A DNA stretch of 41,720 bases from Myxococcales bacterium (GTDB lineage: Bacteria; Myxococcota_A; Polyangia; Polyangiales; Polyangiaceae). The notes beneath the pieces were generated by a model. It did not search any database. It was not told the DNA's origin and saw only the letters and a program-made list of their open reading frames with translations. This document shows positions 8,531 through 40,126 of the stretch, one piece after another (position 1 is the first letter of the stretch; each line of letters starts with the position of its first letter). The position numbers and the translations under genes were made by a program. The stretch covers positions 1-41,720 of the forward strand of contig JAAFHV010000052.1 of the NCBI GenBank assembly GCA_013297655.1, written 5' to 3'.

Positions 8531-9607
8531 ATGACGCGCCTTCTTTCTCTCTCGCTGCTTGCGCTCTTTGCCTGCTCGAGCCCGGTCGAAGCATCGGCAC
8601 CGGAGCCCGCGACGCCGGGGACTCCCGGGCCGCGCTTGGTCGTCGTTCGGGCCGCGGTGGCGGGGGACGAGGTCGCTGTGGTTTGGGCGAGGGAGGAGCG
8701 GCCGCTCGTGCTCTCTCGCTTCTCGTTGACGGGGCAGCGTCGCGGCGAAGACGTGGTGCTCGCGCCCACCGCGCGGCTGGCGACCCTCGCGACCGACGGC
8801 GCACGTTACGCGGCGTGCTGGGGCACGGGACCGTCGCCCTCCGATGGCGACACCGACATTGCGTGTGCAACGGTGCCGGTTGGCGGCGGAGCGGTTTCCG
8901 TGCTCACCCCTTTTTCAGGGGTCGCCCCCGCGCTCACCCGCGGCCCGCGCGGCCTCGTGCTCGCGTACGGAAGCATCGAGTCACAGGCCACGAGTGGCAA
9001 AAGGTTTCGTATTCACCTCCGCGAGCTCGAGGGTACCGGCGCATCGTGGAGCTCGGAGGTACTCGAGACCCCGGCGCTCGCTGGGCTCCAGGTCACGTCC
9101 ACCCCGAGCGGCTTCTTCGTCGCGGCGTTGTATGGATCTATGGGATTTCGTTTGGCCCACGATCTGACTTCCGCCAAAGGCCCATTCCCCATTGGCGAGT
9201 CCTTCGGGACGCAGCCGGGCACCGAGAACATCGTCGCCATCGGCGACACGGTCGCCATCAACCGCGCCATTCCCTACAAGACCGCTTACACGGTTGTCGA
9301 TAGCTCGAATCGTGTCACCACGTCGCTCTTCGTGGGTGGCGGCGTGAAGCTCGGACATTCCGCGTTTCTCTGGGCGGAGGCAGGCTCGTTTCGCGCGGCT
9401 TGGCAAACGACCTTCGAGGGCGATTCGCTCCAGCGGCGAGACCTCCCGCTCGACGCCGGTCGAATCGAGGAGAACGGCGACGTCGATGAGCGGCGCCAAG
9501 AGCAGCACGGTAGCCGCATGACGGTCGTGGCCTCCCCCGCCGGCCCGCTGCTGGTGAAGGACGGCGCGACGGGAGTGGTCGTCGTGGCCCTCCCTCAGGC
9601 GCCCTAG
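8531..9607 (+). CDS. Secreted lipoprotein, probable beta-propeller
   Basis: A 358-residue product. The N-terminus LLSLSLLALFACSS is a lipoprotein signal with Cys15. A short Pro/Ala linker leads into a body of repeating beta-rich segments (VVVRAAVAGDEVAVVWA, TLATDGARYAACWG, GPRGLVLAYGSIES, GFFVAALYGSMGF, ENIVAIGDTVAINRA). Such segments, each with a short hydrophobic beta strand and Gly/Asp turns, are typical of myxobacterial surface proteins with propeller folds. No active-site motif is visible. The ATG at 8531 is chosen because the signal peptide begins there. The gene is isolated, with about 200 bp of non-coding sequence upstream. Confidence 0.75.
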   Translation: MTRLLSLSLLALFACSSPVEASAPEPATPGTPGPRLVVVRAAVAGDEVAVVWAREERPLVLSRFSLTGQRRGEDVVLAPTARLATLATDGARYAACWGTGPSPSDGDTDIACATVPVGGGAVSVLTPFSGVAPALTRGPRGLVLAYGSIESQATSGKRFRIHLRELEGTGASWSSEVLETPALAGLQVTSTPSGFFVAALYGSMGFRLAHDLTSAKGPFPIGESFGTQPGTENIVAIGDTVAINRAIPYKTAYTVVDSSNRVTTSLFVGGGVKLGHSAFLWAEAGSFRAAWQTTFEGDSLQRRDLPLDAGRIEENGDVDERRQEQHGSRMTVVASPAGPLLVKDGATGVVVVALPQAP

Positions 9608-9789
9608 AGCCAAGCCGTCGTCGCCGACCTGCCTCCGTAGCGCAGAACGAGGTTCGTCGCGCTCTTCAACGCCGCCCGTGCCCGCGCTCATCGCGCCTCC
9701 GAGCCAGCGCGCCAACGCGCCAACGCACGCGCGCGAGCCCGTGAACGCTGCGCCTTGACGGATGCCGATATGGGTATATGTTGGCGCTC

Positions 9790-10131
9790 ATGGCACGCGC
9801 CGCCACCACGTCGGACGTCTTCAACGCGATCGCGGAGCCGCAGCGACGGCAAATCCTCGTGCTGCTGCGCGGGGGTGAGCGGCCCGTGAACGAGCTCGCC
9901 GAGGAGCTGGGGCTCACGCAGCCGGGGGCTTCCAAGCACCTGCGTGTGCTGCGCGAGGTCGGCCTCGTGAGCGATCGTAAGGCAGGCAAGCAGCGCCTCT
10001 ACTGCCTGAACGCGCGCGGGCTTCGGCCGGTCCACGAGTGGGCGGGCGGGTTCGCGCGCTTTTGGAACGAGAGCTTCGATCGGCTGGACGCGTACGTGCA
10101 GGACCTCAAGAAGGCAAAACAGGAGAAGTGA
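9790..10131 (+). CDS. ArsR-family winged-helix regulator
   Basis: A small winged-helix protein: FNAIAEPQRRQILVLL, then the helix-turn-helix LAEELGLTQPGASKHLRVL and the wing VGLVSDRKAGKQRLYCL. No Cys metal-binding ELCVCDL box is present, so it is not an arsenic sensor. It belongs to the ArsR group that sits next to SRPBCC genes. It is followed after 2 bp by the SRPBCC gene and then, with a 1-bp overlap, by the RibD-like gene, so it should autoregulate this operon. An ATATGGGTATAT dyad at about 9769-9780 overlaps the alternative ATG at 9778 and may be part of an operator. For that reason the ATG at 9790 is preferred. Confidence 0.88.
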   Translation: MARAATTSDVFNAIAEPQRRQILVLLRGGERPVNELAEELGLTQPGASKHLRVLREVGLVSDRKAGKQRLYCLNARGLRPVHEWAGGFARFWNESFDRLDAYVQDLKKAKQEK

Positions 10132-33023: not shown

Positions 33024-34025
33024 CTACCTCTTGCGCTCCGCCATGCAGGCCGCGTTCTCGGGCGCGTTCACATAAGCCTTTCCCACGACCGTGAGCTGCC
33101 CGTCGGCGCCGAGCAGGTCCACGTTCTTCACCTCGGTCGTCCTTCCCGAGAACCACGCATACCTCACCACCCGGGGGTCGCTCTCGAGATAGGCCACCGC
33201 GTCGCGCGCGAATCCTTCCGCGTCGGCGGGCGAAGCGGCGTCGTCGCAGGCGAGCTCGGTGAGCCAAATCGGCTGCGTGAAACGTCGCTCGTAGGTCTTC
33301 AGGTGGTCCACCATCCTCTTGGCGCGATTGCCGGCTTCGCCCTTGCAGCCCACGTAAATATGCACCGCGATCGCGTCGACGCGGCATCCGGGGCAGGCAG
33401 CGAAGAACGAGTCCAAATAGGCAAACGGGTCGGCGCCGTGGCAGCCCCCTCCGCAGAAGTTCACCGCCGGCGAGACGAGGGGGAGCCCGTGCGCGTCGGC
33501 CACCGCTTGCACGGCGGGCCAAGCTTTGGCAGCCGCTTCGGGCGAGAGGTTGGCCTGCGAGAAGAAGTTGGGCTCGTTGAACCCGAGCAGGGCCGGCGCA
33601 CCGGGCAAAATCTCCCTTTGGACCGCGGCCGGGTCCACCTTCGTGCCCCACACCATCGGCACGTAGGCGATTCCCTCGTTCGCGAACGTCGTGCGCACTC
33701 CCGTGTCGGGCAAAAATGCCCAGTTGTACCACCAGGAGATCCCCGGTTTCAGGGCCTTCATGTCGGCCTCGGAATGGTACCCATAGGCCACTCCACGTTT
33801 GCACGCGCTCGCTCCCTTCGATCCGGGAGTGGGCATTGGGCTCGTTCCGGGGCCCGTCGGCGCGGTCGTAGGCACGGGCGACAAGGCCCCCGGGGGCAGG
33901 GAAGCCGCGGGCGCGCTCGGGTCCGTCGGCGCTCCGGTCGCCGAGTCTCCGCAAGCGACGACGAGGCCAGCCAAGAGCGCGCAGAGGAGAGAGCCGCGCG
34001 CGTCGATTCGATCCATCGAAGTCAT
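33024..34025 (-). CDS. GH128-family (Asl1-like) beta-1,3-glucanase lipoprotein
   Basis: 333 residues. The signal CALLAGLVVACGDS puts the lipidated Cys at 25, and a Pro/Thr/Ser-rich linker runs to about residue 70. The catalytic barrel has GISWWYNWAF, VPMVWGT, LLGFNEPNF with the probable acid/base Glu151, VSPAVNFCG, VDAIAVHIYVGC and WLTELAC with the probable nucleophile Glu257. This is the signature of the glycosyl hydrolase catalytic core now called GH128, whose characterised members cleave beta-1,3-glucan. ATG at 34025 overlaps the TOS1-like stop (ATGA), so translation is coupled. It is the last gene of the sigma-factor run and probably sits on the outer membrane facing outwards. Confidence 0.87.
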   Translation of the reverse strand: MTSMDRIDARGSLLCALLAGLVVACGDSATGAPTDPSAPAASLPPGALSPVPTTAPTGPGTSPMPTPGSKGASACKRGVAYGYHSEADMKALKPGISWWYNWAFLPDTGVRTTFANEGIAYVPMVWGTKVDPAAVQREILPGAPALLGFNEPNFFSQANLSPEAAAKAWPAVQAVADAHGLPLVSPAVNFCGGGCHGADPFAYLDSFFAACPGCRVDAIAVHIYVGCKGEAGNRAKRMVDHLKTYERRFTQPIWLTELACDDAASPADAEGFARDAVAYLESDPRVVRYAWFSGRTTEVKNVDLLGADGQLTVVGKAYVNAPENAACMAERKR

Positions 34026-35347
34026 TTGGCCTCCGGAAGGCGCATCGCGGCGAGCGCATCCACCGTCGTCCGCGCGAGGGTCGCCGGCAGGGCGGGGAGC
34101 ACCGGCGCGGCAGCGGCAGGCACGTTCTCCGGATGCACGATCGCGACGTTCATCGACCGCGTCGCCTCGTCCAGAAGAACGACGAAGTAGCGATCGCCTA
34201 GCGGCCGTTTCCACACCGGGCAGCCATCGGCCTTGCCGCCGACCGGGATCACCGGACCTTTGGTGTAGGCCGTCTTTGCGCAGGCATCGACGACCTCGCT
34301 GTCGTCGGGGAACTGCCCTCGTGCGCACCCCGTACCACACACGTTTCCGCCCACGTGCCCGGCCTGATACGAGCGTACACCGGTGCTCGCGAACTCTCGA
34401 TTGCTGAACGCGTTGCCGTCCATGACCACCTCGAACAGGTTGATCTCCCCGCAGCCGTCGCCCACAGTCCCGGTCTTCGAATAACAATTGCAGGCGCCAT
34501 TCCATTTTCGCGCCCCGTCGCGCACCAGCTCGGAGGCCACGAGCGCCACCCACGGGCCCGGATGCGCCGCGCCGCCGCCGTTGCAGGAGGCCACCCCCGC
34601 GTCGTCGAACGTCGCCGAGGCGAGCATCACGAAGAGCTTCGAGCCGCGCCAGCCGAGGCGCTTCACGCCCGGATCCGCAGGGCAAAAATAGTCCTTTCCG
34701 TCACCGCACTCGAACATGGAGGTCTGCGCCGCGTAGCTCACGCAGTCGTTCTTCGCGAGCTCCCCCGTCGACGAGGTCTCTTGGTCCGGTCCGCGCGTGA
34801 AGCCGAGGTTTTGCCCGGCGCGCACACGACGATCCCACGCCGACACGAGCGCCCAATCGGTGCCCTGCGCGGCGGGTTGATACACCGCGAGCTGCTTCAA
34901 ATCGATCGCCTTGAGGACGAGCGTCATCTCCTCGTCGAAGGGCGCGAGTCTGTCGCTCGTCGACGCTTGTTTCTTCATGCAGCATTGGCCACCCCAGGTG
35001 TCTTTGCCGTCTTTGTAGTCGCACGCCGCGTCACCCGCCGGGCGGTTGATTCGGCGAGGCCAAAACCCGGGCGCGCCGACGTTCGTGAAGGTCATCGTGC
35101 CACCGCGGCTCTTCGGTGTGCTCGGCACCGGGTACGCCCCGAGTCCGGCCCCGAGTCCGGCCGGCGGCGGTGGGTCGTCCGGATGGCCGGGGGTGCCCGG
35201 AGCACCCGGCGACGTTGGCGTCGTCGAAGGCGCCTGCGCGTCGGGGTCATTCGCGGGGCCGCTGGCTTCGCCGCAAGCGGACACCGAGAGCACCGCGAGA
35301 AAGACCGCGCACGAGGAGGACGCCACGACGAACGAGGATCGCTTCAC
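34022..35347 (-). CDS. TOS1-like (DUF2403/DUF2401) lipoprotein
   Basis: 441 residues. The signal CAVFLAVLSVSACGE gives a lipidated Cys25, followed by a Pro/Gly linker. The DUF2403-like part (about 95-165) includes TMTFTNVGAPGFW and LAPFDEEMTLVLKAIDLKQL. The DUF2401-like part (about 195-420) includes AAHPGPWVALVASELV, WNGACNCYSKTG, CGEINLFEVVMDGNAFSNRE, SYQAGHVGGNVCGTGCARGQ and GDRYFVVLLDEATR. These domains make up fungal TOS1, a wall protein with a proposed glucanase-like fold. The GTG at 35347 starts just before the signal peptide. It is coupled to the GH128 gene, so it probably binds or acts on the same glucan. Confidence 0.82.
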   Translation of the reverse strand: MKRSSFVVASSSCAVFLAVLSVSACGEASGPANDPDAQAPSTTPTSPGAPGTPGHPDDPPPPAGLGAGLGAYPVPSTPKSRGGTMTFTNVGAPGFWPRRINRPAGDAACDYKDGKDTWGGQCCMKKQASTSDRLAPFDEEMTLVLKAIDLKQLAVYQPAAQGTDWALVSAWDRRVRAGQNLGFTRGPDQETSSTGELAKNDCVSYAAQTSMFECGDGKDYFCPADPGVKRLGWRGSKLFVMLASATFDDAGVASCNGGGAAHPGPWVALVASELVRDGARKWNGACNCYSKTGTVGDGCGEINLFEVVMDGNAFSNREFASTGVRSYQAGHVGGNVCGTGCARGQFPDDSEVVDACAKTAYTKGPVIPVGGKADGCPVWKRPLGDRYFVVLLDEATRSMNVAIVHPENVPAAAAPVLPALPATLARTTVDALAAMRLPEAK

Positions 35348-35396
35348 GTCGAGTGTGTCGCCGCCCGTGCTCCTTCCCGTGATCGAATCGACGCGC

Positions 35397-36398
35397 TCAG
35401 AAATGAAAGCTCGCCGAGAGGCCCACACGTGCGCCGAGCGCCGACACGCGCCCGAGGGACACGTTCGCAGGTCCGTTCGCGATCACGAGCTCCGGCCGCG
35501 TGAATGGAACTACCGCCGCAGCGTCGACCGCGAGCCCGAGGCGCGTCGTTCCGGGCACCAGCACCGTAAGCCCGGGCTCGAGCATGAGCACCGTCGCGCC
35601 GTCGCGGTAGGCCTCGGTGACCCCCGTTCCTTCGCCTTGCACGCGTGCGCCTCGGAGCGCGACGCAGCCGCCCACCGCAATTGCGGGAAACGCATGCAAC
35701 ATGCACGGACGTGCGGCGAAGGCGTAAATCACGAGGGTCGCGCCTACCTCTGGAAGCTCTGCCGCGGTCGTCGTCACCCTCGGCGCGAGCTCTCCCTCCA
35801 CGTCGAGTCGCAGCGCACGCCACGAAACGCGCGCCCCGATCGCGATCGCGGGCACGACGCCGGGAACGAGCGCGCGGGTGAAGCTCGCGCCCGCGAGCGC
35901 CGACACTCGGACCTCGGACGCGCGCGGCGTGGGAGGGATCATCGGCGGTGCGGGCAGGGGTCGCGTCGCTGGAGGTGCTGGCGGCGCCGGCTTGGGCGCG
36001 GAAGGCGCGGGCTCCGGCGGCGGTTCGAGTGAGGCCGACGGATCGACCGCGAGCGCCACCACGAGCGCCGCCCCGCGCGCGGCCGAATCGCACGTCGACG
36101 CATGCAGTGTGCGCTTTCCTTCCGCGCCGCCGTGGAGCTCCACCGTAACGTCGAAGCCTCCTTCGCGCTCTTCCACGACCGCGGTTGCGGACGTAGGCGT
36201 CTTCGGAGGCACGGTGACCATTCGCTCCACTTGCCCGAGCACGGCGCGCTCGTCGGGACATCCCGCCGGCGCGGTCCAGCGGAGCTCCACCTTTGGCTCG
36301 GCGTGCGCGAAGGGCGCCGCGAGAACGAGCGCGACGACGGCGAGGCACGTCGTACTCGCGCGCGCGCGCCTCCGAAACGTGCGTCGAGGAGGGCTCAT
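35397..36398 (-). CDS. Outer-membrane beta-barrel-like protein
   Basis: 333 residues. The signal peptide TTCLAVVALVLAAPFAHA is cut before EPKVELRW. A periplasmic domain (about 35-120) carries GCPDERAVLGQVERMV and FDVTVELHG. A Pro/Ala-rich linker of about 35 residues leads to a C-terminal region of amphipathic strands (VRVSALAGASFTRALVPGV, LRLDVEGELAPRVTTTA, LRGARVQGEGTGV, ALGARVGLSASFHF). The final Phe after alternating hydrophobic residues is typical of an outer-membrane barrel. It begins 44 bp after the anti-sigma-like gene and ends 49 bp before the TOS1-like gene, so it is likely part of the same transcript. Confidence 0.75.
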   Translation of the reverse strand: MSPPRRTFRRRARASTTCLAVVALVLAAPFAHAEPKVELRWTAPAGCPDERAVLGQVERMVTVPPKTPTSATAVVEEREGGFDVTVELHGGAEGKRTLHASTCDSAARGAALVVALAVDPSASLEPPPEPAPSAPKPAPPAPPATRPLPAPPMIPPTPRASEVRVSALAGASFTRALVPGVVPAIAIGARVSWRALRLDVEGELAPRVTTTAAELPEVGATLVIYAFAARPCMLHAFPAIAVGGCVALRGARVQGEGTGVTEAYRDGATVLMLEPGLTVLVPGTTRLGLAVDAAAVVPFTRPELVIANGPANVSLGRVSALGARVGLSASFHF

Positions 36399-36442
36399 GC
36401 GCGGCGCACCCTATCCGAGCGCGCGCGATTCTCGAACCGTGA

Positions 36443-37258
36443 TCATGGAAGGCCGCACGCCGAACGCACCCGCGCGACGAGCGGAGACGACGCGTGGCGC
36501 GAGACGAAGCGCTCCGCGAGCCCTTTGCCATCGCCGCGTTTCGCCTCGCACGCCGCCACCGCGCGAAGGCCCTCGCGCTCCGTCGCGAGCGCGCCACGGG
36601 GAAAACGCCGCGCATGGTCGTCGAGAGCGGCGAGGGCGTCGCTCGGGGAACGCCGCGCGAGGGCGCGTTGCGCGGTGCCGAGGAGGGCGACCTCGGCTTC
36701 GAGATCGTCGCTCCGCGCGCTCCCCTGAGGCGCCCCGTGCGAGGGCGAAGCGACGTGCGCCGTGGGCGCGGGAGGGCCCGGGATCGTGGAGGGGGCGGCG
36801 GTGGGCTCCAGCGGTGTCGACGGCGCTTCGGGGCTCGCGGTCACGCCGTTCGTGAAGGGCGTCGTCGGCGTGGCGGGCGTGGGCGGCTTGCTCGCGGGGT
36901 GGCCATCGGGTGGTGCCGTCGTGGCCGTCGTCGTCGTCGCCGTCGGGCCTTCGAGAGCGCCCTTTGCAGCGTAAATTCCAGCGCTTCCCGCGATGCCGAG
37001 GAGCACCACCGTGGCCCCGATCTTCCACCCGAAGAACGAGCTTGCCCCGGCGACGCCTTTGGCCGCGAGCCCCACGTTTGCGCTGGTGCCGACCGCGCTG
37101 GTACCCACGGTCGCGCCAGCTCCGATCGAAGCGACCGAGGTCGCGGTGACGGCGGCGATCACGCGCGCGCGCACGCGTGCTCGGTCGTGGGCCGTCGGAT
37201 CGTCGGCCGCGCGGAGAGCGTCGAAGAGGAATTTTTCGTCGGGTCCGAGGTCGTCCAT
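36443..37258 (-). CDS. Anti-sigma-like single-pass membrane protein
   Basis: 271 residues. A short cytoplasmic N-terminus (MDDLGPDEKFLFDALRAADD, then RARVRARVIAAVTAT) precedes one transmembrane helix at about 79-98 (KIGATVVLLGIAGSAGIYAA). A long Thr/Pro/Ala linker follows, with a C-terminal helical, TPR-like part (EAEVALLGTAQRALARRSPS, DALAALDDHARRFPRGALAT). No zinc HxxxCxxC anti-sigma motif is present. Its start overlaps the sigma stop (TGATG), and this pairing with helical periplasmic domains is frequent in myxobacteria. It probably tethers the sigma factor and senses an envelope signal; that role is inferred from position and topology. Confidence 0.75.
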   Translation of the reverse strand: MDDLGPDEKFLFDALRAADDPTAHDRARVRARVIAAVTATSVASIGAGATVGTSAVGTSANVGLAAKGVAGASSFFGWKIGATVVLLGIAGSAGIYAAKGALEGPTATTTTATTAPPDGHPASKPPTPATPTTPFTNGVTASPEAPSTPLEPTAAPSTIPGPPAPTAHVASPSHGAPQGSARSDDLEAEVALLGTAQRALARRSPSDALAALDDHARRFPRGALATEREGLRAVAACEAKRGDGKGLAERFVSRHASSPLVARVRSACGLP

Positions 37259-37920
37259 CAGCGAACCCTCCTTTCGCGAGCGCGAAGCCGCGCCACCGCC
37301 TCTGCGATTTCGATCCGAGCCGCACGAAGGCGGGCGTATGCGGTGTTCACGTTCGCCTCTACCGCTTCTGCCGCCTCCGGAACGCTCATCCCCTCGAGCT
37401 CCACGAGCATGAACATGGTGCGCTTGTCGTCGTCGAGTCGCGCGAGGAGCGCCTCCGCGATCCGCGCCGCCGAAGCGAAGCTCGCGGCCAGGTCCGGCCC
37501 AGCCGCTTCGTCGACCACGAGCTCCGGATCGAGGTCCTCACGGTCACGTTCGCGCCGACCCGCGGTGCGGTGGCGCATCAGGACCACGTTGTTCAAAATG
37601 CCATACACCCACGTCTTTACGCTCGAGCGCCCTTCGAACGCGGCGAGCTTCTGATGCACGATCACGAACACGTCTTGGCAAACGTCGTCGAGTGACGACG
37701 CCGGGATCCCGCGCCTCCGTGCCACGCGCCACACGAACGGGAAGAGCTCTTCGTAGAGCACTAGAAAGTCGAGCTTCGGGCGCTCGGCGGGTGAGCCTTG
37801 CGACGCGGGCACCGCCGACGGGGCGTCGAGAGACCGCTCCCCGGGCACCGGTTCGCTTCGCTCGGGGAGATCGGCGTTCACGTAAGACGATGTTGCCGCA
37901 CGCGGCGCAATCCGTGACAC
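37258..37920 (-). CDS. ECF-type RNA polymerase sigma factor
   Basis: 220 residues. The sigma-2 region (about 51-120) reads LYEELFPFVWRVARRRGIPA, SSLDDVCQDVFVIVHQKL, GRSSVKTWVYGILNNVVL. The sigma-4 region (about 155-205) carries DDDKRTMFMLVELEGMSV, PEAAEAVEANVNTAYARLRA. There is no sigma-3, as expected for group IV. The first 45 residues are a low-complexity leader from a GTG; the GTG before NADLPERSE is an alternative start. It is translationally coupled to the anti-sigma-like gene and diverges from the LamG-like lipoprotein 42 bp away. It probably drives its own operon, including the TOS1-like and GH128 genes. Confidence 0.9.
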   Translation of the reverse strand: MSRIAPRAATSSYVNADLPERSEPVPGERSLDAPSAVPASQGSPAERPKLDFLVLYEELFPFVWRVARRRGIPASSLDDVCQDVFVIVHQKLAAFEGRSSVKTWVYGILNNVVLMRHRTAGRRERDREDLDPELVVDEAAGPDLAASFASAARIAEALLARLDDDKRTMFMLVELEGMSVPEAAEAVEANVNTAYARLRAARIEIAEAVARLRARERRVR

Positions 37921-37962
37921 GAAAGCGTGGTCGGCTCGTTTCCTCGTGCTACGTGGCCTCCG

Positions 37963-38778
37963 ATGCGGCGCAGGTTCGGTGCAATCGTCTTAGGCGCGCT
38001 CGCGCTCTGCCTCGGCGAATTCAGCCTCATCGCGTGCAGCTCGGGCGCGATTTCCCTCGGCCGGATCGGCGACGAAGGCAGCATCGCCGTCGACGCGGCG
38101 GTCGACGCGCCGAACGAGGCCGGGGTATGCGCGCTCCCCGAACCCACACGCGACTACACATTCGACGGCACCGGAACCGCTGTCGTCGACGCGCGTGGTG
38201 GCCCGGCCGGGCGCCTGGTCGGCGGCGCGACGTTGAGCGGCACCGGCGAGGTCGCGCTCGACGGGGTCGACGACTACGTGGAGCTCCCGACCGACGTGCT
38301 CGCGGGTCTAGACGAAGCCACCGTGGCGATCTGGGTTCGGCGCCGCGGCGGGCCTGCATTCACGCGCGTGTTCGACTTCGGATCGCGCAACGCCGCAGCC
38401 ACCCCCGGCGGCCTGACGTACCTCGCGGCCACGCCGGCGACCGGGCAAACGCCGAGTGGGCTCGCGCTGCTCTTCTCTACGAACGGCGCCGCGGGGGAGG
38501 TGCTCGTGCCCTCGGCCGCCTCGCTCGACGGCGCGCTCCGTTCGGTGATCGTCGCGGTGTCGGCGACCGAGCTCGCGCTCTACTTCGAGGGCGCGCTCGT
38601 CGCACGGAGCGCGAACGCGGCCTCGCTCCGCGCGCTCACGGTCGAAAACGCGTGGCTCGGGCGCTCGCAATACGCGATCGATCCGTACCTCGGCGCCGAT
38701 TACGCCGACGCCCGCATCTATTCGCGCGCGCTCACGGCTTGCGAGGTCGCGAAGGTGTTCGCGGCGGGCCCGCGTTGA
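37963..38778 (+). CDS. LamG/concanavalin-like lipoprotein
   Basis: 271 residues. The signal GALALCLGEFSLIACSS gives a lipobox Cys25, then a short acidic linker. The mature domain follows the LamG/pentraxin jelly roll: TRDYTFDGTGTAVVDARGG, GEVALDGVDDYVELPTD, TVAIWVRRRGGPAFTRVFDF, SVIVAVSATELALYFEGALV and YADARIYSRALTACEVAKVF. DGVDDYVELP and the closing ARIYSRAL are typical of the family, which often binds sugars. It is divergent from the sigma gene and may share its promoter region, so it could belong to the same regulon. It could dock the cell onto a polysaccharide; the ligand is not known. Confidence 0.82.
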   Translation: MRRRFGAIVLGALALCLGEFSLIACSSGAISLGRIGDEGSIAVDAAVDAPNEAGVCALPEPTRDYTFDGTGTAVVDARGGPAGRLVGGATLSGTGEVALDGVDDYVELPTDVLAGLDEATVAIWVRRRGGPAFTRVFDFGSRNAAATPGGLTYLAATPATGQTPSGLALLFSTNGAAGEVLVPSAASLDGALRSVIVAVSATELALYFEGALVARSANAASLRALTVENAWLGRSQYAIDPYLGADYADARIYSRALTACEVAKVFAAGPR

Positions 38779-38794: not shown

Positions 38795-40126
38795 TCAGAG
38801 ATCTTCTACGACCACGAACGCGCGCCGGCTCGCCGGGAGATACCCGCTTATCCGATACGTTCCGCGATCCTTGTCGAGCGGGATGAGCGCGGTCCCTTCC
38901 GAGCGGGGGAACCAGGCGTCGTCGCGCCATTCGTACCAGAGCTTCCCCTTCGTCACGAGCGGGCCGGTGCCCTCCTGCTCGTACACCGTCACGCGGTAGA
39001 GGTTCTCCTTCGGGATCGCGGGGATCGTGCCGGCGCGTACTTTGTCGCGCATCTTGTCGCGGAGCTCGGGCCAGGTGAACCCCTCGGCGTGCGCAACGCT
39101 GTAACCCTCGAGATCGCACCCGCCGCCGAACGGCTTGTCGAAGTTGCCGGGGAGGGTGTCGTCCCACTTGGCCACGTCGCGCATCGGCTTGCCCTTGTGG
39201 CCCCAATACTTGTGTCCGGGTGAGCCGATGCTCGCGTATCCGGGGAGCAACGTCTCGGCGAGATAATACGACTCGTCGCCGGGGAACTGCGTGCGGGTGA
39301 TCGGCACCGGCGCGGTGCCGAGGTTGATCATCGTGCAGCGCGGCTCGTCGCTCCACTTCTTGCGCCCGAGTGGCAAGTTTTTTGGAACGTACACTTTGCC
39401 GCTTTCGTCGACATAGAGGCCAAAACCGATCGCTTGGTTGATCTCTTTGGGATTCCATCCTCCGCGGTGGCGCGGCCAGGTCGTGTCCGGAGGAACGAAT
39501 GTTTTCATTTCGACCGACGCGCCGTTCTTCACGAAGCGCCAGGTGGGGCGAAACGCGCCGAAAATGTCGCCCTGATCGTCGTCGTAGTCCGTGAAGTAGC
39601 CATACTCGTAGCCCGGCTCCACATGATAAATGAATGGCAAAGCGCCAATTTCGCCGACCGTCTTCTTTATGTCGTGACCAATCGCCCAGCCGAGGTTGTC
39701 GGTGCCGGGGGTGAACGCCACCGCGTCCATCACGCCGGGCAAGTACGGCAGCTCGAAGTGGCTATCCACCACGTAGTGAGTCGCGGTCTCTTGCAGCGGG
39801 TAGGTCTTTCCCCTTCGCGCGTACGAGAGCACGTATTCGCACGGCGTCGCGGTGATCACCTCGTACGGTTTTCCCGCGTAGGTCGTCGTGCCTATCTTAC
39901 GAATCGAGAACGCGCCGTCCTTGCAGGCTCCTCCGTCGACCACGACTGGGGGAAGGGGAGTGGGGGCACCGGACGTCGGCACCGGGAGGGTGCCACCACC
40001 ACCTCCGTCGGTCGTCGCGCCGTCGCCGTCGCCGCTCCCTGGCTCGCTCCCGCAGCCGTGGAGAAAGGCACCGACGAAGAGAGCGAGTACGAGCGCCGCT
40101 GCAGAATCGGTCCGAGAGAGCTTCAT
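38795..40126 (-). CDS. Large secreted lipoprotein, unknown family
   Basis: 443 residues. The signal LVLALFVGAFLHGCGSE gives Cys25 as the lipidation site, followed by an Asp/Gly-rich and then a Pro-rich linker. The mature part begins at a Cys (GGACKDGAFSIRKIGT) and is rich in Trp, Tyr and Gly: GYEYGYFTDYDDDQGDIFGA, GWNPKEINQAIGFGLYVDES, PGHKYWGHKGKPMRD, KLWYEWRDDAWFPRSE. It ends with a beta strand ISGYLPASRRAFVVVEDL. Aromatic-rich surfaces of this sort often contact carbohydrate, but I recognise no catalytic motif. It is convergent with the LamG gene (16 bp apart). The IS element sits about 120 bp upstream of its start and may affect its expression. Confidence 0.75.
   Translation of the reverse strand: MKLSRTDSAAALVLALFVGAFLHGCGSEPGSGDGDGATTDGGGGGTLPVPTSGAPTPLPPVVVDGGACKDGAFSIRKIGTTTYAGKPYEVITATPCEYVLSYARRGKTYPLQETATHYVVDSHFELPYLPGVMDAVAFTPGTDNLGWAIGHDIKKTVGEIGALPFIYHVEPGYEYGYFTDYDDDQGDIFGAFRPTWRFVKNGASVEMKTFVPPDTTWPRHRGGWNPKEINQAIGFGLYVDESGKVYVPKNLPLGRKKWSDEPRCTMINLGTAPVPITRTQFPGDESYYLAETLLPGYASIGSPGHKYWGHKGKPMRDVAKWDDTLPGNFDKPFGGGCDLEGYSVAHAEGFTWPELRDKMRDKVRAGTIPAIPKENLYRVTVYEQEGTGPLVTKGKLWYEWRDDAWFPRSEGTALIPLDKDRGTYRISGYLPASRRAFVVVEDL

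Follow-up and report, generated by a model that had tools for sequence, protein, structure and literature searches.

A candidate beta-1,3-glucan-dismantling gene cluster of myxobacteria that combines TOS1-like and SUN-like lipoproteins with a GH128 family protein

Background

Tos1 and SUN are families of the fungal cell wall whose mechanism is debated. The SUN family has been described as fungal-specific (mBio 2026, PMC13251364); the same account, which speaks of a GH64-TLP superfamily, considers for SUN proteins the roles of a binder, of an unwinder and of a partner of glucanases. It places T277, D278, Y279, E283 and Q318 on the floor of the SUN canyon and reports that mutation of T277 and E283 of SUN4 impairs cell separation in yeast (PMC13251364). 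Among glucanases, the closest points of reference are enzymes of the GH128 family, such as CBM6E with its catalytic residues E168 and E272 (PMC10956234), and GluM, a myxobacterial beta-1,6-glucanase (PMC10341360). Here, we describe a locus in a stretch of 41,720 nucleotides (hereinafter the window; contig JAAFHV010000052.1, assembly GCA_013297655.1) from the 9.9 Mb genome of a Myxococcales bacterium, in which genes for a TOS1-like, a GH128 and a SUN-like lipoprotein are found together with a gene for an extracytoplasmic function (ECF) sigma factor. This locus is probably a regulated outer-surface cluster that dismantles beta-1,3-glucan, most likely that of fungal walls.

Linkage of the TOS1-like gene with glucan-related partners

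In the window, the gene for the TOS1-like lipoprotein, which contains the N-terminal and C-terminal YJL171C/Tos1 domains (34022..35347, minus strand; PF10290 and PF10287), is directly followed by the gene for a GH128 endo-beta-1,3-glucanase-type lipoprotein (33024..34025, minus strand; PF11790). The stop codon of the former is overlapped by the start codon of the latter in the sequence ATGA, and the same overlap is present in another genome (G177). The gene set has a seventh member that was overlooked in an earlier note on this DNA, namely, a gene for a SUN-like lipoprotein (38795..40126, minus strand) identified through its Foldseek and VIA matches to yeast SUN and its linkage to TOS1. In the genome from which the window comes, the searches detected a single match each for TOS1, GH128 and the SUN-like gene, all inside 33.0-40.1 kb of the window.

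Among 183 genomes of the order, TOS1 is present in 34, GH128 in 35 and the SUN-like gene in 16 (two of these on the basis of weak, partial matches). Both TOS1 and GH128 are present in 27 genomes (Fisher p 6e-19, without correction for relatedness), and each of the 16 genomes with the SUN-like gene also carries TOS1. The linkage is also physical: the distance to TOS1 is at most 2 kb for 22 of the 54 GH128 matches and at most 10 kb for 26, and the respective numbers for the SUN-like matches are 15 and 18 of 21; of the remaining three SUN-like matches, one sits on a different, short contig and two are partial, about 60 codons each. The co-occurrence of the TOS1-like and GH128 genes, which the earlier note had named as a check, is thus strongly conserved.

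The neighborhoods of 56 TOS1 genes (53 loci from a scan of named genomes, the window and two further members of the order) include GH128 in 25 cases, the SUN-like gene in 19 (counting one fragment, in L083, and one split gene, in L130), a thaumatin domain in 10 and a GH64 gene in 5, with at least one of these partners in 39 loci. For these counts, GH128 and SUN-like matches under 60 bits were dropped, and the locus survey listed matches from 25 bits upward. All 25 loci have GH128 at a distance of 20 to 1344 bp from TOS1, and the TOS1 and GH128 distances across these loci correlate (rho 0.47; a value as high was obtained in 0 of 2000 permutations). In two loci, the thaumatin domain (PF00314) and TOS1 are fused in a single lipoprotein-like frame (L095:8909-10831 and L096:8906-11122). 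Genes for GH64 beta-1,3-glucanases are found beside TOS1 and GH128 in four further loci (L116:11364-12518, L120:3831-5228, L125:12254-13438 and L133:8250-9278); the counts also include a GH64 remnant in L131 and a weak thaumatin match in L133. The SUN-like, thaumatin and GH64 partners all involve the thaumatin fold, and in none of the 56 loci was the SUN-like gene observed alongside thaumatin or GH64. With recurrent partners from four families linked to beta-1,3-glucan, this glucan, already proposed as the target in the earlier note, is well supported by linkage.

The TOS1-like and GH128 proteins

The TOS1-like protein of the window matches PF10290 with an E-value of 5.8e-5 (24.2 bits) and PF10287 with an E-value of 0.003 (17.9 bits), the gathering score being 27; in the genome scan, the PF10290 match, taken with its neighbours, scored 27.7 bits against 27, just over the cut-off. 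All 44 aligned members of the group match PF10290 and then PF10287 at E<=1 (best E-values, 2.2e-11 and 2.5e-8). Judging by these sequence profiles, the gene is a member of a genuine bacterial branch of Tos1/YJL171C, with the window copy lying at the Pfam cut-off. The closest proteins, 69-72% identical, come from genomes labelled Polyangia, Labilithrix and Myxococcales 68-20. A single-sequence search had detected TOS1 in no more than 2 of 282 genomes of the phylum, the source genome included; this apparent rarity is superseded by the count of 34 of 183 genomes, which was obtained with a two-sequence profile, and therefore was at least partly an effect of sensitivity. The hosts include Polyangium, Sorangium, Minicystis, Nannocystis, Enhygromyxa, Myxococcus, Archangium, many metagenome-assembled genomes (MAGs) and three genomes of Rhizobacter.

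The Rhizobacter (Burkholderiales) genes (L105, L108 and L111) lack the four glucan-related partners within the fetched stretch, and the one in L105 is followed by genes for a TetR protein and an ABC permease; acquisition by transfer is possible for these genes. A sub-cut-off match to the N-terminal Tos1 family was also detected in the control genome of Deinobacterium chartae, outside Myxococcota. In a Sorangium genome, the gene directly after TOS1 encodes a protein with RCC1 repeats and an LDL-receptor-A domain (L090:4488-6605).

The catalytic motif of GH16 enzymes is E-x-D-x-x-E, and the TOS1-like protein of the window contains E-I-N-L-F-E. Across the 44 members, the motif takes the form G-[E20/Q24]-x-N-x-x-E, that is, the first Glu is kept in 20 and replaced by Gln in 24, the position of the Asp is occupied by Asn in all 44, and the last Glu is kept in all 44. 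Given the invariant Asn and the frequent Gln, ordinary GH16 catalysis appears doubtful if the motif positions correspond, at least for the Gln type, and under the same proviso a binding role would be more likely. The structure model, built from an alignment of 43 sequences from the 53 loci together with the window copy, is of good confidence (predicted local distance difference test, pLDDT, 84.8; predicted template modelling score, pTM, 0.90).

The assignment of the second protein to GH128 is secure at the sequence level, including both catalytic Glu motifs: the PF11790 match scores 186.4 bits against a curated cut-off of 21 (E-value 8e-55), and the best match in the PDB, 6uax (ScGH128_II), covers the full-length domain with an E-value of 2.8e-103 (349 bits), followed by 8j3x (CBM6E; 8e-57). 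NEPNF and WLTELA are aligned with their counterparts in CBM6E; of the two, the first was altered in 8j3y, and E272 of CBM6E presumably belongs to the second. The protein can thus be predicted to cut beta-1,3-glucan. The earlier note had taken both families as best known from fungal glucan biology: the TOS1-like protein does show kinship to Tos1, whereas the GH128 protein is no fungal hallmark because the closest enzymes, those of subgroup II with solved structures, are bacterial. CBM6E is one of the subgroup II enzymes (PMC10956234). In Enhygromyxa salina (L122, at about 9045-9842), NEPNF reads NQPNF, and this GH128 protein may be a binder because its first catalytic Glu is replaced by Gln.

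The SUN-like protein

The three best Foldseek matches of the SUN-like model, which is of low confidence, among 350,542 PDB chains are yeast SUN domains (E-values 0.016-0.035). In the VIA comparison, SUN domains were matched with Z scores of 8.7-9.5 over 209-229 residues that include both SUN lobes, the sushi-like and the thaumatin-like one, followed by the thaumatin-like protein TLXI (Z 5.7) and then by a match at 4.2. Among Pfam families, the 17 members of the group reach SUN (PF03856) and no other, with matches in 12 of them (best E-value, 0.0098). In the 183 genomes, 27 SUN matches below the cut-off were recorded, and 11 of these fall in SUN-like genes. The alignment used here consisted of 16 sequences and the window copy, the fragment in L083 and the split gene in L130 being left out.

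In a profile alignment with deposited SUN4, WP and RT-x-x-PG-x-E are in register. The sequence RTQFPG[ND]E, present in 16 of the 17 members, aligns with RTDYPGTE of SUN4, so that among the canyon residues T277 and E283 are identical, Y279 corresponds to F and D278 to Q; Q318 is not conserved. Taken together, the fold matches and the weak sequence signals suggest that the SUN-like protein is probably related, at a distance, to the SUN family.

In the genome of Myxococcales 68-20, a SUN-like fragment lies next to the ECF locus (L083:6331-6528), and a full-length copy is found at another TOS1 locus of the same genome (L129).

The sigma factor cassette and its recurrence

The five leftward genes, all in open frames, are as tightly packed as the earlier note had stated, in both order and spacing. 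The ECF sigma factor gene (37258..37881, minus strand; Pfam Sigma70_r2, 1.5e-13, and r4_2, 1.7e-8, both over the cut-off) overlaps by 1 bp, at its stop, with the gene for a putative membrane antisigma factor (36443..37258, minus strand), which is separated by 44 bp from the gene for a putative outer-membrane protein (OMP; 35397..36398, minus strand); 49 bp separate the latter from the TOS1-like gene. A lipoprotein with a LamG_3 (concanavalin A-like) domain (37963..38778, plus strand; PF13385, 1.3e-17) is encoded divergently from the sigma factor, as claimed previously; the 42-bp gap given there does not stand because the conserved start of the sigma gene, in a three-way alignment with two relatives, is GTG at 37881 rather than a codon at 37920, resulting in a gap of 81 bp. 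A lipobox is visible by eye in the TOS1-like, GH128, LamG and SUN-like proteins. The antisigma candidate comprises, as read from the sequence, one hydrophobic stretch, a Pro/Thr-rich linker and a C-terminal region. Because neither it nor the OMP-like protein has a Pfam match at E<=1 or a significant NCBIfam match, these two labels rest on position and on the appearance of the sequence.

The complete arrangement, sigma-antisigma-OMP-TOS1-GH128 with the divergent LamG gene, is found in the window and in two other genomes, a Labilithrix MAG (L082) and Myxococcales 68-20 (L083), where the identities to the window proteins range from 42% (antisigma) to 70% (TOS1): 65% for the sigma factor, 42-45% for the antisigma candidate, 45-47% for the OMP and 46-50% for the LamG protein, the antisigma and LamG counterparts being encoded at the same place. 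Recurrence of the full order is more than chance, and gene-order conservation in relatives, the lack of which the earlier note would have counted as refuting, is present. In the region between the sigma and LamG genes (37882..37962), three blocks are conserved in the alignment of the three genomes (37943-37951, 37911-37926 and 37889-37900). The sequences TAGCACGAG, GCTTTCGnGnCACGGA and TGCGGCAACATC are located upstream of the sigma start in all three genomes, with exactly 10 bases between GCTTTCGnGnCACGGA and TGCGGCAACATC in each, and may represent a promoter. A motif shared by the sigma and LamG promoters, such as the earlier note had envisaged, was not seen by eye in this alignment. A regulon defined by the derived promoter pattern was dropped: the pattern has 5 sites in the genome versus 7 for a backward control and is not enriched.

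Other loci also combine TOS1 with ECF factors. In L133, a related trio is encoded on the opposite strand about 2 kb from TOS1-GH64-GH128 (the sigma factor is 45% identical over 166 residues; the antisigma and OMP matches are short). In Minicystis rosea, a 49% identical sigma factor directly precedes TOS1-GH128, and in six Nannocystis loci (L117, L123, L125, L128, L131 and L132) this pair is preceded by a different ECF factor and a kinase-WD40 protein, with the domains read for one of them; the kinase-WD40 repeat protein has 1143 amino acids in L125 and is split in L131. Eleven of the 56 TOS1 loci contain a match to the OMP family; several such matches, in related genomes, are 3 to 9 kb away from TOS1. 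Given these cases, ECF control of the TOS1-GH128 pair may have arisen more than once.

The OMP family is found in 25 of the 39 genomes searched, with six matches in the source genome. In nine other OMP loci, chosen as the best matches, a sigma factor is present in eight and an antisigma factor in seven, one of these weak, and by comparison of coordinates all nine are more than 10 kb away from any TOS1 or GH128 match; in the locus survey, the coordinates of some sigma, antisigma and OMP matches are those of a secondary stretch of the same frame. Specificity of the trio for glucan genes is rejected, given that the trio occurs widely elsewhere; since it is also found without such genes, it is a portable signalling cassette that was recruited at this locus. 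Of the earlier proposal that the glucan system has its own sigma factor, the recurrence of the full gene order stands, whereas a dedicated glucan sensor is unproved because the trio is multicopy and found away from glucan genes.

Proposed function and alternative explanations

From the layout of the trio, we propose that the antisigma protein holds the ECF sigma factor at the membrane until a signal received via the outer-membrane partner frees it. The freed sigma factor would then transcribe its own operon from the conserved region 37889-37926, so that the TOS1-like and GH128 lipoproteins, whose genes are syntenic, would be made together; the SUN-like gene, 3.5 kb away, is presumably transcribed from another promoter. 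The lipoboxes would retain all four lipoproteins (TOS1-like, GH128, SUN-like and LamG) on the envelope, with the surface as the presumed site. There, the GH128 protein, in line with its family and catalytic motifs, would cut beta-1,3-glucan, and the TOS1-like and SUN-like proteins would bind or loosen glucan chains and help this cutter, a role suggested by the recurrent linkage, the TOS1-thaumatin fusion and the resemblance to the glucan-binding SUN domain.

Several observations weigh against this scheme. In 17 of the 56 TOS1 loci, all four partner families are missing, although some of these loci are on short contigs, and the genome searches score part of the first-look candidates, so that absences are no proof. 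Relatedness of the genomes inflates the linkage counts, which owing to shared ancestry are not independent events. The TOS1 model fits only common concanavalin-like folds, with a tie at VIA Z 5.6 between 3dgt, an endo-1,3-beta-glucanase of GH16, and a legume lectin; it has no Foldseek match at E<=0.001, and a PDB sequence search with TOS1 gave no credible match, so that the model is compatible with a concanavalin-like fold and proves nothing. The case for SUN kinship has its own weak points. The model is poor (pLDDT 60.8), and none of its Foldseek matches reaches an E-value of 0.001. The best PF03856 score is 15.8 bits against a gathering score of 25, no match in the 183 genomes exceeds the cut-off, the window copy has none at E<=10, and three of the sub-cut-off matches outside the SUN-like genes outscore every SUN-like gene. 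The profile comparison with SUN is weak (probability 2.6%, E-value 0.017, with 1 of 100 column shuffles scoring higher), searches of PDB sequences with the SUN-like profile or with one member found no credible match, and the SUN pattern Cx5Cx3Cx24-27C is missing, with only two invariant Cys, 73 residues apart. Because of the weak sequence significance, the failure to pass the cut-off and the absence of the cysteine pattern, we call the protein SUN-like rather than a SUN member. The sub-threshold sequence support and the poor model, along with TLXI being the next structural match, speak for a mere thaumatin-fold protein without real SUN kinship. We nevertheless consider this rather unlikely: the SUN match spans both lobes (model residues 38-419, SUN 139-420) whereas TLXI covers only 239-419, PF03856 is the sole Pfam family found, 11 of the 27 sub-cut-off matches fall in SUN-like genes, and the conserved RTQFPG[ND]E aligns with the SUN4 segment that holds T277 and E283.

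A quite conceivable, if not the favored, alternative accepts the glucan-degrading set as real and sees in the ECF trio a generic envelope-stress or housekeeping cassette that is present by chance or lends a promoter and does not respond to glucan. The trio is indeed a multicopy cassette that also occurs away from glucan genes, as in the nine OMP loci discussed above, TOS1-GH128 is mostly found without it, and it precedes this pair in operon order in 3 of the 56 loci. Yet, the trio with the divergent LamG gene persists across three genomes with a 35% difference between the sigma proteins, and the related trio of L133, the Minicystis sigma factor directly upstream and the different ECF factor of Nannocystis also speak against this alternative. 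It is unlikely, more so than the doubts on SUN kinship, that a beta-1,3-glucan other than that of the fungal wall is the target, for example curdlan, laminarin of algae, callose of plants or a polysaccharide of the bacterium itself. Nothing in the DNA names the source organism of the glucan, and the related CBM6E has been described as curdlan-specific (PMC10956234); conversely, the relatives of the TOS1-like and SUN-like proteins are fungal wall families, thaumatin partners recur at TOS1 loci, and fungi pathogenic to plants are reported to be prey of myxobacteria (PMC10800785).

The larger point is that TOS1-like and SUN-like proteins accompany glucanases in bacteria. Tentatively, and with less confidence than in the functional proposal, we suggest that Tos1 and SUN, regarded as restricted, or almost so, to Ascomycota, have linked myxobacterial relatives in one beta-1,3-glucan cluster; a non-exhaustive literature search, with most subscription journals outside its scope, found no report of bacterial Tos1 or SUN genes. 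If the kinship is true, the SUN-like gene would place in bacteria a family described as fungal-specific. Through the linkage of these bacterial relatives with a true glucanase family and through the thaumatin-TOS1 fusions, the model of a helper for a glucanase can be put to a direct test using simple soluble proteins; the cluster is also a source of candidate tools with which fungal walls might be loosened.

Comparison with known systems

The regulatory part of the locus resembles ECF cell-surface signalling of the FecI-FecR-FecA type in that an ECF sigma factor, a membrane antisigma-like protein and an OMP are encoded in one run; the OMP described here differs from the TonB-dependent receptor with a signalling plug of such systems in matching no TonB-receptor family (at E<=1 in Pfam). 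The SusC/SusD pair of polysaccharide utilization loci was not found among the seven locus proteins scanned. GluM, which is located in the outer membrane and used on fungi, is likewise a glucanase of a myxobacterium, one that preys on fungi, but the linkage it cuts, beta-1,6, is different. The SUN-like protein resembles the fungal SUN family (PF03856, GH132) in the two-lobed fold match of its low-confidence model and in the register of WP and RT-x-x-PG-x-E, and differs from it as a bacterial lipoprotein that lacks the SUN cysteine pattern and scores below the cut-off. With fungal Tos1/YJL171C, the TOS1-like protein has in common the same two domains, PF10290 and PF10287, in the same order, whereas it is a bacterial lipoprotein with the Gln and Asn substitutions in the GH16-type motif. 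The GH128 protein resembles the subgroup II enzymes (6uax, 8j3x) in the full-length domain and both catalytic Glu motifs; unlike them, it is a lipoprotein without CBM6 that is encoded together with a TOS1-like gene.

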